Source of the DNA: Deltaproteobacteria bacterium RBG_13_61_14
GTDB taxonomy: Bacteria > RBG-13-61-14
Length of the DNA stretch: 16,099 nt
Reading direction: 5' to 3'
NCBI GenBank assembly: GCA_001797815.1
Contig: MGQK01000045.1
Coordinates: forward strand, 41,216 to 57,314
Shown piece by piece: positions 9,380 to 13,983 of the stretch. Under the pieces are notes generated by a model. It worked only from the letters and a program-made list of their open reading frames with translations, made no database searches and was not told the DNA's origin. Position 1 is the stretch's first letter, and the number at the start of each line of letters is the position of its first letter. The translations under genes were made by a program, and so were the position numbers.

Positions 9380-9844
9380 TCACTCGCCCGGGATCTCTTC
9401 CTCGGAAATCACGTTGACGCCTTCCGCTTCCAGCAGAGCCGCAAAGACGCCCTTGCCCTCCACCAGCCGGCCGGCTCGATAAATCCGGCGGACCCCGCAC
9501 GAGGGCGAGCGCTCTTTCAGAATTGCATGGGTGGCCCGGCCGTGCTTGACCAATTCCAGCGCCGCGCCGGCGCCGCGCCGGAAAGCCTCGGTCACGTCCG
9601 ATCCGTCCGCCAGCTTGACCCGGGCTTCCTCCCGGAGCACGCGGCGGCCGTCGCCGGCTTGGATCTCGGCCGGCGGCCGGGGGATGGGCAGTCCGGAGAG
9701 GAGTTCGGGGCAGACCAGGACCGCCTGCTTGTTCTTTAAGAACTCCATGACTTGAGGAGTCAACTTATGCCCGCCATTGTAGCGGCAGCGGATGCCGAGG
9801 AGACAGGCGGAAACGGCATAAACGGCCGGATGCTGGACGGGCAT
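9380..9844 (-). CDS. DUF523 family protein
   Basis: A 154-residue protein starting at the ATG at 9844. A TTG six bases upstream would add two residues (ML); neither start has a clear Shine-Dalgarno sequence. All DUF523 landmarks are present: VSACLLGIRCRYNGG with C14 and C20, VCPELLSGLPIPRPPAE with C45, and LKERSPSCG with C116. The four conserved cysteines suggest metal or Fe-S binding, but no function is established that I can name with confidence. Full length for the family. It lies 29 bp after the MCE gene on the same strand, so it may be the last gene of that operon, though nothing links it functionally to lipid transport. It converges on the GH-O-like gene with a 6-bp gap and no visible terminator. 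Confidence 0.85.
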   Translation of the reverse strand: MPVQHPAVYAVSACLLGIRCRYNGGHKLTPQVMEFLKNKQAVLVCPELLSGLPIPRPPAEIQAGDGRRVLREEARVKLADGSDVTEAFRRGAGAALELVKHGRATHAILKERSPSCGVRRIYRAGRLVEGKGVFAALLEAEGVNVISEEEIPGE

Positions 9845-9873
9845 GAGCAAGTGTGGTCTAGAGAGGCACGCGC

Positions 9874-10815
9874 CTAGGGCGGCGGGTAGCGGGGCTTGCC
9901 GGAAATCTTGCCCACGTTCACGGTGATGCCCTCTTGCTGGAGGATCTCGCGGATGGCGCGGCTGATCTGGTCCCGGGTCAATCCCTGAGTCTCCTGCTCC
10001 AACTGGGCGGTGATCCGGTCGAGGCGGGCGATGGTGGCGGTGAGGCTGTCCACCGAGGCCAGGAGCTCGTTAAGCTTATCTTTCACTTCCCGCTTTTGCG
10101 CGGGCTGGACCTGGCCCAGTTCCGAAGTAATGTTGTTGAGATCGCGGAGCACCACCTGGGCCTGAGTGAGCAACGGCTGGGCATCATGGAGCGTAAGGCG
10201 CAGGTCCGCCATCATGGGCGAGATATTGCCCCGCACCTCGCCGGTGATGACCCGCAGGTCTTCGGAGATCGTGACCAGGTTCGAGAGCGCGGCCTTGAGC
10301 TTCTCCCGGTCGTCAAGCCCGAGCTGGTCCAGGAGGTCGGCCACCCGCTCGAAGATGTCAAAACCCTGGCTGAGCAACTGCTCCAGGCGGGGCGGGTCCA
10401 CGCCTCGCACCTCGGCGCCGTCTTCCAGCTCGGGAGAATCGGGACTACCAGGCACGATCTCGATATACTTGCCGCCGATCAAGCCTTCGAAGTTGATGAA
10501 AAACTTGGAGTCCCGGCGGATCAGGTGCTTGGCGCGCTTGTCAATCAAGAATTCGAGCGAGAGCGAGACCGGGCCGCCGGGAAAGGGATGTCCGGCCTCG
10601 AAGAAGCGGATGGCGGCGACTTTGCCCACCTTGGCCCCGGCCACCCGGACCGGCGAGCCGAGCTCGATGCCGCCCACGTAGTTGTGGACGGCGTAGATGC
10701 GGAAGGTGGTGGAGAAGGGGTTGTAGTCGCCGAGCAGGAAAAGGAAGAGGATGACGAGGGCGACGGTAGCGGTCACCACCAGGCCGACTTTGACTTCCAG
10801 GCTGAAGCGGTTCAT
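9874..10815 (-). CDS. mlaD: MlaD/MCE-domain lipid-binding protein with long helical C-terminus
   Basis: A 313-residue protein with an N-terminal membrane anchor (about 8-29), one MCE domain (about 35-122: VRVAGAKVGKVAAIRF, then NFEGLIGGKYIEIVPG) and a long, mostly helical tail (about 142-300) with heptad-like spacing, ending in a proline-rich YPPP. MCE proteins form hexamers in the periplasm with a central channel for phospholipid passage and sit on a permease-ATPase core. E. coli MlaD is about 183 residues; the extra ~130 here are mainly the helical tail, which could lengthen the channel or reach an outer-membrane partner (inference, by analogy with PqiB). ATG 10815 overlaps the upstream permease stop by 4 bp. 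It is the only MCE protein in the operon, and no MlaC or MlaB gene is seen. Confidence 0.9.
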   Translation of the reverse strand: MNRFSLEVKVGLVVTATVALVILFLFLLGDYNPFSTTFRIYAVHNYVGGIELGSPVRVAGAKVGKVAAIRFFEAGHPFPGGPVSLSLEFLIDKRAKHLIRRDSKFFINFEGLIGGKYIEIVPGSPDSPELEDGAEVRGVDPPRLEQLLSQGFDIFERVADLLDQLGLDDREKLKAALSNLVTISEDLRVITGEVRGNISPMMADLRLTLHDAQPLLTQAQVVLRDLNNITSELGQVQPAQKREVKDKLNELLASVDSLTATIARLDRITAQLEQETQGLTRDQISRAIREILQQEGITVNVGKISGKPRYPPP

Positions 10816-11675
10816 TGGATCACCACCTCCAAGATTTTATCAGCAACGACGTTGATGGTAAAGTCCAGCAGGATGATGACCAGGATGGAAGTGACCACGC
10901 CCCGGGTGGTGGCCTCGCCCACGCCCTTGGCCCCGGCCCCGGCGCGAAAGCCGTAATAGCAGGCCGCGATCGGCACCACCGCGCCCAGGAGCAGGGCCTT
11001 GGCGATCAAGTTGAGAAAATCCTCCACCCCCACGAAATGGCCCATGGTGGTCAGGTAAGACTGGAAGTTGAACCGGGGCTGGCTGATCAGGAAGCCGGTG
11101 ACAAAAGCCACGGCCACCCCGATCACCGAGAGCGCCACCTGCATGGCCAGGGTGGCGATGAACCGGGGCACCACCAGGTAATGCACCGGGTTGACCGAGA
11201 GCATTTCCAGGGCGTCAATCTGCTCGGTGTTCTTCATGCTGCTGATCTCGGCGGTAAAGCCGGCCCCGACCTTGGCCGCGAGCATGGCCGCGACCACGGT
11301 CGGGCCGAACTCCCGGAACATGAGGATGCCGGCCACCCCGGGCACGTATTCGAGGTTGTGGATCACCCGGCTGAGCTGGAAGTTGAGCTCGAGCACGGTG
11401 ATCATGCCGAGGAATCCGAGCACCACCACGATCAGGGGCAGGGACTGCCAGCCCACGGTCAGGGCCTGGCGCAGGATCTCGCGGAGGCGGTAAGGCGGCC
11501 GGGGCACGAGCCACAGGGTCTGGATCAAGAGGACCATGCCGCCGCCCGTCACCTCCAGGAAGCGGAAGAGGTTGGAGCCGATGCCCTCCACCGTGATCCC
11601 CAGCCGGGCCAGGTAAAGGATCTGGGAAAGGGTGCGGCCGATCAGGCGCAAGGTCTTGTTCTCAACCCAACTCAT
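10812..11675 (-). CDS. mlaE: MlaE-type ABC permease, second of two
   Basis: A 287-residue permease of the MlaE/YrbE family, the membrane part of an MCE lipid transporter. Family blocks are intact: FREFGPTVVAAMLAAKVGAG, then FTAEISSMKNTEQIDALEML and SVNPVHYLVVPRF, and near the end GAKGVGEATTRGVVTSI. Several hydrophobic segments are present. An N-terminal amphipathic stretch (MSWVENKTLRLIGRTLSQIL) matches the interfacial helix seen in the family. It lies 12 bp after the first permease and has GGGAGA close to its ATG. It overlaps the MCE gene by 4 bp. Its C-terminal VG-ATTR motif is canonical, whereas the first permease has a deviant version, which argues that the two are distinct subunits rather than a recent duplicate. 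Confidence 0.92.
   Translation of the reverse strand: MSWVENKTLRLIGRTLSQILYLARLGITVEGIGSNLFRFLEVTGGGMVLLIQTLWLVPRPPYRLREILRQALTVGWQSLPLIVVVLGFLGMITVLELNFQLSRVIHNLEYVPGVAGILMFREFGPTVVAAMLAAKVGAGFTAEISSMKNTEQIDALEMLSVNPVHYLVVPRFIATLAMQVALSVIGVAVAFVTGFLISQPRFNFQSYLTTMGHFVGVEDFLNLIAKALLLGAVVPIAACYYGFRAGAGAKGVGEATTRGVVTSILVIILLDFTINVVADKILEVVIQ
10826..10830 (-). promoter_or_regulatory. Ribosome binding site for the MCE gene
   Basis: Read on the minus strand, GGAGG lies 10 nt before ATG 10815, within the end of the second permease gene. It supports this start over downstream alternatives. Confidence 0.55.
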
Positions 11676-11687: not shown

Positions 11688-12512
11688 TTAAAAGATGATC
11701 TCCTCGGCCAGGCCGTAGGTGAGCGCGGCCAGGCTGGCGATGATGTAGTCGGCCAGGAACACGGCGATGCTGCAATGCACCAGGCAGCGGTTGACCGCCT
11801 GGCCCACGGCCTCGGCCCCGCCCTCGGTCTTCATCCCCTGGTAGCAGGCGATGGTGGCGAGCAGGATGCCGAAGAGGATGCTTTTCAGCATCCCGGTGAA
11901 CAGCGCCCAGGCCGCGGTCAGCTTGCGGATGTTGGCGAAGTAGAAGCTGAGATTGATGTCCAGGATCAGGTTGCCCACCAGGGCCCCGCCGAGCAGGGCC
12001 ACGAGCAGTCCGAGGATGGTGAGCATGAAAATCATGGCCGACACGGCCAGGAACCGGGGCACCACCAGGAACTGGACCGGGTTGACGCCCAGGCAGCGGA
12101 TGGCGTCCACCTGCTCGGTGACCTTCATGGTCGCCAGCTCCGCGGTGATGTAAGCCCCCACCCGGCCCACGATCATAATCGCCACCAGCACCGGGCCCAC
12201 CTCCCGGAGCAGGCCCGAGGTGGTGATCCCGCCCAGGTAGACCTCGGCCCCGAACAGGCTCAAGGCATAGTTGAACTGGATCACCACCACTCCGCCCACG
12301 AAAAAGCCGGAGATGAGCACGATCGGCACCGAGCGCACGCCCACCTGATACATCTGGAGGATCATCTCCTGCACCTCGAACGGGGCCTTGAAAATGTGGC
12401 GCACGGTGGCGGCCAAAAACATGGCCATGGCCCCGATCTCCCGCAGAAAGGCCATGACGCCGATCTCGATCGGCCCGCGGATCCTCTGGACCTGGCGGGT
12501 GAGCACGGTCAT
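11688..12512 (-). CDS. mlaE: MlaE-type ABC permease, first of two (divergent C-terminal motif)
   Basis: A 274-residue MlaE-family permease. Visible blocks: LLREVGPVLVAIMIVGRVGA, then YITAELATMKVTEQVDAIRC and GVNPVQFLVVPRF. The C-terminal motif, normally close to GVG-ATTRAVV, is here EAVGQAVNRCLVHCSIAVF, a clear departure from the family and from the second permease. Length is normal (E. coli MlaE is about 260). The ATG at 12512 overlaps the stop of the second ATPase gene by 4 bp, and a 12-bp gap separates it from the next permease. MlaE normally works as a homodimer. Two adjacent, dissimilar copies with two dissimilar ATPases suggest a heterodimer, as with YrbEA/YrbEB in mycobacterial Mce loci, but this is inference. 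Confidence 0.92.
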   Translation of the reverse strand: MTVLTRQVQRIRGPIEIGVMAFLREIGAMAMFLAATVRHIFKAPFEVQEMILQMYQVGVRSVPIVLISGFFVGGVVVIQFNYALSLFGAEVYLGGITTSGLLREVGPVLVAIMIVGRVGAYITAELATMKVTEQVDAIRCLGVNPVQFLVVPRFLAVSAMIFMLTILGLLVALLGGALVGNLILDINLSFYFANIRKLTAAWALFTGMLKSILFGILLATIACYQGMKTEGGAEAVGQAVNRCLVHCSIAVFLADYIIASLAALTYGLAEEIIF

Positions 12513-13255
12513 GGCGCGGCCTCGGGCGCGGCCCGGCCTTCGACAAATTGTCGGACCAGGGGGTTCGCGCTGTGGAGAAATTGTTCCGGCCGGCTGACCT
12601 CGACCAGGCGGCCGTCGGCCAGGAGCGTGACCCGGTCGGCCACCCGGACCATGCTGATCAAGTCGTGGCTGACCACCACGCTGGTCACGGAGAGCTTCTC
12701 CGCCATCTCGAGCATGAGCCGGTTGATCTGCTCGGCGGTGAACGGGTCGAGCCCGGTGGTGGGCTCATCGTAGAGGAGGATGCGGGGCCGGAGCGCGATG
12801 GTCCGGGCCAGTCCCACCCGCTTCTGCATACCGTAACTGAGCTCCTGGGGCATCCGCTCCGCCACGTCCCCGGGCAGGTGAACCAGCGCCAGGTTCTCCC
12901 GGACCTGCGCCGCGATTTCTTCTTCGGAGAGGTCGGTGTGCCGGCGCAGGGCAAAGGCCAGGTTCTCGAACACGGTGAGCGAGTCAAACAGGGTGGGGAA
13001 CTGGAAGACCATGCCGCATTTGCGGCGCACGCTCATGAATTGCGCTTCGGAAAAAGCCGTGACCTTTTCCCCGTCCACCCAGACCTGGCCGCGGTCGGCC
13101 CGGAGCAAGCCGACCAAAAGCCGGATGAGCACGGTCTTGCCCACCCCGGTCTGGCCCAGGATGAAAAAGCGCTCGCCCGGCTCGATGCGGAGATCAATCC
13201 CCTGGAGCACGGGGTGCCCCCCGAAGGACTTCCAGACGTCGCGGAACTCGATCAT
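12509..13255 (-). CDS. mlaF: MlaF-type ABC ATPase, second of two (consensus catalytic residues, deviant LSYGM signature)
   Basis: A 248-residue ATPase of the MlaF family, expected to power lipid movement at the inner membrane. Motifs: Walker A G34-QTGVGK-T41, Q-loop Q85 (MVFQFPTLFDSLT), signature L139-S-Y-G-M143, Walker B ILLYDE with catalytic E164, D-loop TTGLD, H-loop H197 (VVVSHD). All catalytic residues are present, but the signature has Tyr at the third position, where LSGGM is normal. The upstream partner shows the opposite pattern. ATG 13255 overlaps the upstream ATPase stop by 4 bp, and no separate ribosome binding site is visible, so translation is probably coupled. Its stop overlaps the first permease start by 4 bp. 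The C-terminal GRAAPEAAP tail is short and low complexity. Confidence 0.93.
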   Translation of the reverse strand: MIEFRDVWKSFGGHPVLQGIDLRIEPGERFFILGQTGVGKTVLIRLLVGLLRADRGQVWVDGEKVTAFSEAQFMSVRRKCGMVFQFPTLFDSLTVFENLAFALRRHTDLSEEEIAAQVRENLALVHLPGDVAERMPQELSYGMQKRVGLARTIALRPRILLYDEPTTGLDPFTAEQINRLMLEMAEKLSVTSVVVSHDLISMVRVADRVTLLADGRLVEVSRPEQFLHSANPLVRQFVEGRAAPEAAP

Positions 13256-13983
13256 GAAGTGAACTCGGGCTGCAAGAACTGGCGGACTTCCGGGCGTTCG
13301 GAATCCTGGAGCGATTCGGGCGCGCCCAGGTCGAGGAGTCGGCCCTGGTGCAGGAGCAGGACCCGGTCCGCGATTTTTTTGACCACCAGGAGGGAGTTGC
13401 TGACCAGGAGCAGGGTCACCTTGAACTGGCGGCGGAAATCCAGGATCAGGTCGGCGATGGCGTCGGAGGTGATGGGGTCGAGCCCGGCGGTGGGATCGTC
13501 GCAGAAGAGCACCCGGGGCTCGCCGATCATGGCGCGGGCCAGCCCCACCCGCTTCTTCATGCCCCCGGAGAGCTCCCGCGGATACAGGCCGCCGATCTCG
13601 CCCAGGTGAAGCCGGTCCAGGAACTGCCGCACCCGGCTCTGGATCTCGGCCGGAGCCAGGCGCTGGACCTCGCGCAACACAAAGCCGATGTTTTCGAGCA
13701 CGGTCATCGAATCAAAGAGCGCGTTGCCCTGGAAGAGCATGCCCACTTGCCGGCGCACGCGGGCCAGGCTCGCCGGCGAGGCCCGGGTGAGGTTGGTGCC
13801 GGCCAGCACCACTTCGCCGGCCTGGGGGCGGATCAGGCCCACCGCGGTCTTGAGCACGGTGGTCTTTCCCGAACCGCTCGGCCCGATCAAGGCCACCGCC
13901 TCCCCTTCGGCCACGGACAAGTCGGCCCCGCGCAGCACGGCCGCCTGGTGAAAGCGGACCCCAATATCGCGCAGCTCAATCAA
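13252..13983 (-). CDS. mlaF: MlaF-type ABC ATPase, first of two (degenerate Walker B and H-loop)
   Basis: A 243-residue MlaF-family ATPase and the first gene of the operon. Walker A G34-PSGSGK-T41 is intact, as are Q85 (MLFQGNALFDSMT) and the signature L138-S-G-G-M142. But Walker B reads VLFCDD, with D163 where the catalytic glutamate belongs, and the H-loop reads VSNS, with N196 in place of histidine. I checked both codons on the DNA (GAC-GAT and AAC). This subunit should bind ATP but hydrolyse it poorly on its own. The start is TTG 13983: an in-frame TGA lies at 13999-14001 and the family N-terminus MIELRDI begins here, so no ATG is available. Only a weak GAAAG precedes it. The frame is otherwise intact with family-normal length, so this is not a pseudogene. 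Confidence 0.92.
   Translation of the reverse strand: MIELRDIGVRFHQAAVLRGADLSVAEGEAVALIGPSGSGKTTVLKTAVGLIRPQAGEVVLAGTNLTRASPASLARVRRQVGMLFQGNALFDSMTVLENIGFVLREVQRLAPAEIQSRVRQFLDRLHLGEIGGLYPRELSGGMKKRVGLARAMIGEPRVLFCDDPTAGLDPITSDAIADLILDFRRQFKVTLLLVSNSLLVVKKIADRVLLLHQGRLLDLGAPESLQDSERPEVRQFLQPEFTS

Follow-up and report, generated by a model that had tools for sequence, protein, structure and literature searches.

Here we describe a putative lipid transporter of the MCE family in which two different ATPases, A1 and A2, are predicted to form a heterodimer, with a degenerate and a consensus ATP site, mounted on a heterodimer of two different permeases, E1 and E2. Judging from the sequence comparisons presented below, we assign this reading a probability of about 0.86. 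The system is encoded in a stretch of 16,099 nt of Deltaproteobacteria bacterium RBG_13_61_14 (contig MGQK01000045.1, positions 41,216-57,314, forward strand; hereafter, the window), in a five-gene operon on the minus strand that consists of the two ATPase genes, two genes for MlaE-type permeases and a gene for an MCE protein, D. The genes and the codons relevant for the analysis are as follows, in window coordinates.

13252..13983, minus strand: A1, MlaF-type ABC ATPase with degenerate D163 and N196 and intact LSGGM (PF00005, 5.7e-33; AlphaFold2 model)
13558..13572, minus strand: A1 signature LSGGM, residues 138-142; SGGM is kept in all relatives read
13495..13497, minus strand: A1 D163 codon, GAT, at the position of the catalytic Walker B glutamate
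13396..13398, minus strand: A1 N196 codon, AAC, at the position of the H-loop histidine
12509..13255, minus strand: A2, MlaF-type ABC ATPase with intact catalytic residues and a substituted signature, LSYGM (AlphaFold2 model)
12827..12841, minus strand: A2 signature LSYGM, residues 139-143
12764..12766, minus strand: codon of the A2 catalytic E164
12665..12667, minus strand: codon of the A2 H-loop H197
11688..12512, minus strand: E1, MlaE-type permease 1, overlapping A2 by 4 bp (PF02405, 3.6e-69)
10812..11675, minus strand: E2, MlaE-type permease 2 (PF02405, 3.3e-58)
9874..10815, minus strand: D, MCE/MlaD protein (PF02470, 1.4e-15)

Three of the four gene junctions in the operon are 4-bp overlaps, including that between A1 (243 aa, with a TTG start) and A2 (248 aa). 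The two ATPases share 44% identity, and the two permeases, which belong to separate clades, 34%. D contains a single MCE domain (residues 39-123) and about 190 more residues. The PF02405 permeases, the PF02470 protein encoded in the same operon and the MlaF-like ATPases identify the system as an MCE transporter of the MlaFED type; the MlaF NCBIfam model is among the best matches of the ATPases, with a score under its equivalog cut-off. By family membership alone, the cargo is presumably lipid. MlaA and MlaC (PF04333 and PF05494) have no match in the source genome, which is about 95% complete, and hence the operon is not part of the six-component Mla pathway of E. coli. Directly downstream of the operon, a gene with a 2-thiouracil desulfurase domain (PF04463) is located at 9380-9850 of the window, on the minus strand.

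AlphaFold2 monomers of both ATPases have a mean pLDDT of 91. MlaF is among the best structural matches of the A1 model, and MlaF and MceG are the best Foldseek matches of A2; MetN and ArtP match A1 about as well as MlaF, as expected for ABC ATPases. A1 and A2 were modelled as single chains, and monomer models carry no information on pairing. In the VIA-align superposition, residues 1-241 of A1 fall on residues 8-248 of the MlaF chain, and by this offset, A1 D163 is equivalent to MlaF E170, and A1 LSGGM to MlaF 145-149 (numbering as in PMC7367683). In E. coli, neither the K47A nor the E170Q mutant of MlaF rescued, so that the ATP-site residues are needed (PMC7367683).

Each ATP site of an ABC dimer is composed of the Walker A/B motifs and H-loop of one subunit and the signature of the other (PMC7756269). 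Because the sites are built in this way, all the substitutions in A1, where the acidic pair of Walker B is D162-D163, and in A2 fall within one and the same site. The sequence-only reading had assigned D163, N196 and LSGGM to A1 and E164, H197 and LSYGM to A2, within 12509-13983, and placed all the defects in a single composite site; these residues and coordinates are confirmed on the sequence, and the placement is the same in 115 further loci, with no exception. As would be expected of an ABC heterodimer with a single degenerate site, the two ATPases are co-encoded and all the substitutions are confined to one composite site, the other being consensus. LSYGM of A2 is altered at the same place as LSHGH of CFTR.

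Related loci were collected by two routes. A DNA pattern for the substituted signature, LS[FLIYHN]GMxKR, was scanned over 84,980 species and yielded 31 stretches, of which 14 were Bdellovibrionota-type loci with the gene set of the window, and one was G001, a relative of the window. A profile built for the second permease, and blind to the ATPase residues, detected the operon in 122 of 290 Bdellovibrionota genomes, in G001 and also in a phylum of two genomes (G151 and G289). Among the 131 regions that were read, 116 contained two adjacent ATPase genes; genome G388 was read twice, so that these correspond to 115 distinct loci, the window excluded. Most of these loci come from Bdellovibrionota and the rest from two other phylum-level lineages; with the phylum of the window represented by only three genomes in the data set, the loci span three phyla. 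The median gap between the adjacent A1 and A2 genes is 48 bp. An example is the operon L167 (G475:C1:3670591-3677880), with ISGGM/DD/ITND in A1 and ISYGM/DE/SHD in A2.

The A1 signature SGGM is present in all 115 loci, and so are both the catalytic Glu and the H-loop His of A2. By contrast, the catalytic position of A1 is occupied by Asp (76 loci), Glu (38) or Ser (1), and its H-loop position by Asn (95), Ser (11), Thr (3), Gln (2), Asp (1) or His (3); loss of the H-loop His is thus nearly universal (112/115), whereas the replacement of Glu by Asp in Walker B is the most variable part of the pattern. Not a single A1, unlinked copies included, combines the catalytic Glu with the H-loop His, and none of the 115 loci is altered in the other composite site, that is, in Walker B or the H-loop of A2 or the signature of A1. 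The third signature residue of A2 is Tyr in 98 loci, Phe in 13, His in one and Gly in two, with one masked. The two loci with Gly are those of the G151/G289 phylum, in which A2 carries VSGGM and ISGGM, and A1 has Glu/Gln, so the signature Tyr is dispensable for this type of transporter. Walker A and the Q-loop are intact in both ATPases at all readable loci. The expected co-occurrence of the A1 and A2 changes in homologous two-ATPase loci was borne out in 115 of 115, although the exact residues vary, and operons with two independently canonical ATPases, which had been named in advance as evidence to the contrary, were not found among these loci.

The retention of the catalytic Glu in 38 and of the His in 3 of the 115 A1 proteins would fit a heterodimer whose asymmetry is only tolerated, with useful rates of ATP hydrolysis at both sites; sites with Asp in place of Glu can still hydrolyse slowly (PMC7756269). 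We consider this very unlikely because no A1 has both Glu and His while the other site never varies, a pattern indicating that selection has favored a combination of one good site with one weak site. Nevertheless, Asp in Walker B of A1 may leave slow hydrolysis, which counts against the favored reading of one degenerate and one consensus site.

As a control, we analyzed 64 other MlaF-type ATPases that were not selected for the signature. In 62 of these, the three positions are occupied by Gly, Glu and His; the two exceptions have Gly/Asp/Pro and Cys/Glu/His. Compared with these 62 canonical controls of 64, a catalytic substitution is found in every A1 read, and the residue pattern of the window exceeds chance. 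We also considered the signature change as a marker in its own right and rejected it: LSFGM in Cloacimonadota and LSIGM in Sneathiella occur together with intact Glu and His, in MCE loci with apparently one ATPase. The change in the A2 signature taken by itself is therefore weak evidence, and Tyr need not impair the site. The weight of the argument rests on A1 having lost Glu and His yet kept SGGM, and on A2 having done the reverse.

Several ATPases outside the A1/A2 pairs have unusual motifs. In Cloacimonadota, the MCE-associated LSFGM ATPases with intact Glu and His (L325:6822-7532 and L328:5683-6393) have no adjoining MlaE gene, and MlaE is encoded on another contig. Sneathiella G401 encodes two unlinked ATPases, with LSGGM/DE/'AITSN' and LSIGM/DE/SHD (L323:6579-7298 and L324:6420-7136); beside the former, which is on a separate contig, no MCE or MlaE gene was found, and the two possibly represent a second pair of this kind. 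A lone paralog of the MlaF type (L041:7126-7836, G030:C43), in which the motifs are LSGGM, DDP and VITPD, is a sister (support 98) to a canonical paralog in the same genome, G030, and may represent a case where a degenerate partner originated separately.

Given that the loci are related, the 115 loci represent fewer independent events than their count, and the trait changes were therefore mapped on a tree. The tree was built from 44 representative A1/A2 pairs together with 42 further ATPases of the MlaF type, and the three trait positions were masked. At a minimum, 7 changes occurred at the catalytic position of A1, 7 at its H-loop position and 6 at the A2 signature; no changes were detected at the signature Gly of A1 or at the Glu and His of A2 on the tree of the 44 pairs. 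A1, A2, E1 and E2 each form one clade (supports of 88, 99, 99 and 100, respectively) that covers the phylum of the window, the G151/G289 phylum and Bdellovibrionota; vertical descent and transfer are not distinguished by the tree.

The loss of catalytic residues from A1 and its somewhat lower conservation (mean column identity of 60% vs 67% for A2) could be taken to mean that A1 is decaying after a gene duplication, and that its match to the A2 signature is a coincidence. This scenario is extremely unlikely: A1 is a single clade that spans three phyla and stays an open frame, in which Walker A, the Q-loop, the first Asp of Walker B, the D-loop (AGLD) and SGGM are invariant at all readable loci. 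Recurring in 115 related clusters, the A1/A2 pair gives the impression of an ancient engine that is asymmetric by design, and not of two genes in decay.

The four core genes, A1, A2, E1 and E2, are co-inherited. Eight fully covered loci lack A1 in the fetched stretch upstream of A2; in seven of these genomes, a D/N-type A1 is encoded elsewhere, a few kb upstream in five and on other contigs in two, and the contig of the eighth genome, G672, stops short of where A1 would lie by synteny with G576. In G495, the operon is split, with E2-D located about 390 kb away from A1-A2-E1; this genome also contains, beside its D/N-type A1, an extra A1-type copy with ISGGM/DD/VVTHS (L311:4404-5117, G495:C23). 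These linkage data bear on the possibility that each ATPase pairs only with itself, for example, in an A2/A2 dimer as the active engine and a weak or regulatory A1/A1 dimer. MlaF and MceG are known homodimers (PMC7367683, PMC9882608), and the one-ATPase MCE loci with a changed signature and intact Glu and His suggest that an A2-like homodimer could be viable. Separate homodimers are nonetheless very unlikely: a D/N-type A1 persists even when relocated from A2, two co-inherited permeases go with the two co-inherited ATPases, and SGGM is universal in A1 although A1 has lost catalytic residues of its own, so that in an A1/A1 dimer this motif would serve impaired sites only.

Thus, A1 and A2 would be expected to heterodimerise physically. 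In one case (L191:2791-4530), A2 and E1 (MlaE-1) are fused in a single frame of 580 residues, whereas A1 and E2 are separate genes, and this fusion suggests that A2 may be seated on E1, and A1 on E2. The ABC core would be fully heteromeric, with A1/A2 on E1/E2, under an MCE ring formed by D. In the consensus site, Walker A, Walker B and the H-loop of A2, including E164 and H197, would face LSGGM of A1, and this site should carry hydrolysis. In the degenerate site, Walker A of A1 with D163 and N196 would face LSYGM of A2; because Walker A and the Q-loop are intact, this site should still bind ATP, hydrolysing it slowly or not at all, and would act as an ATP clamp, a role that has been proposed for the degenerate site in other ABC transporters. 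One hydrolysis event per cycle would be predicted.

E. coli MlaFEDB, a type VIII ABC transporter of the MCE family with the stoichiometry MlaF2E2D6B2 (PMC7790496), likewise combines an MlaF-type ATPase with an LSGGM signature, an MlaE-type permease and MlaD with a single MCE domain. However, MlaF forms a homodimer in which the two sites are equivalent (PMC7367683), as the sequence-only reading had held, whereas the operon in the window encodes two ATPases and two permeases. The mycobacterial Mce1 transporter resembles the window system in having a permease heterodimer (YrbE1A/YrbE1B), but beneath it is a homodimer of MceG (PMC9882608), and there are six MCE genes, in contrast to the differing ATPases and the one MCE gene of the window. 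In Veillonella, a long MlaD has been proposed to bridge the envelope (PMC10665443). In TAP1/2, TM287/288, TmrAB and CFTR, the Glu is likewise replaced, the H-loop changed and the signature of the partner changed, all in one composite site, and the Walker B Glu of degenerate sites is replaced by Asp or, as in ABCC7, Ser (PMC7756269); these proteins, however, belong to families with exporter-type TMDs, whereas the window encodes an apparent MCE lipid transporter with MlaE-type permeases. No two-ATPase or heterodimeric MlaF system is described in the titles or abstracts of the open-access literature searched, in line with the novelty anticipated for an asymmetric MCE ATPase. It appears likely that an MCE lipid transporter with a fully heteromeric core, in which one ATP is hydrolysed per cycle at the single consensus site and the degenerate site serves as a clamp, is old enough to be present in three phyla, Bdellovibrionota among them, and arose independently of TAP and CFTR.

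The MCE transporters of described structure that we compared have an ATPase homodimer, even where, as in Mce1, the permease is a heterodimer. A conserved asymmetric version, if real, would mean that a design with one degenerate site, which has been described mostly for exporters, has also arisen in a cell-envelope transporter of lipids. Such a system would be a natural setting in which to address the purpose of degenerate sites and the direction of lipid movement by MCE systems, and since it appears to be present in tractable predatory bacteria, it would be testable by genetics.
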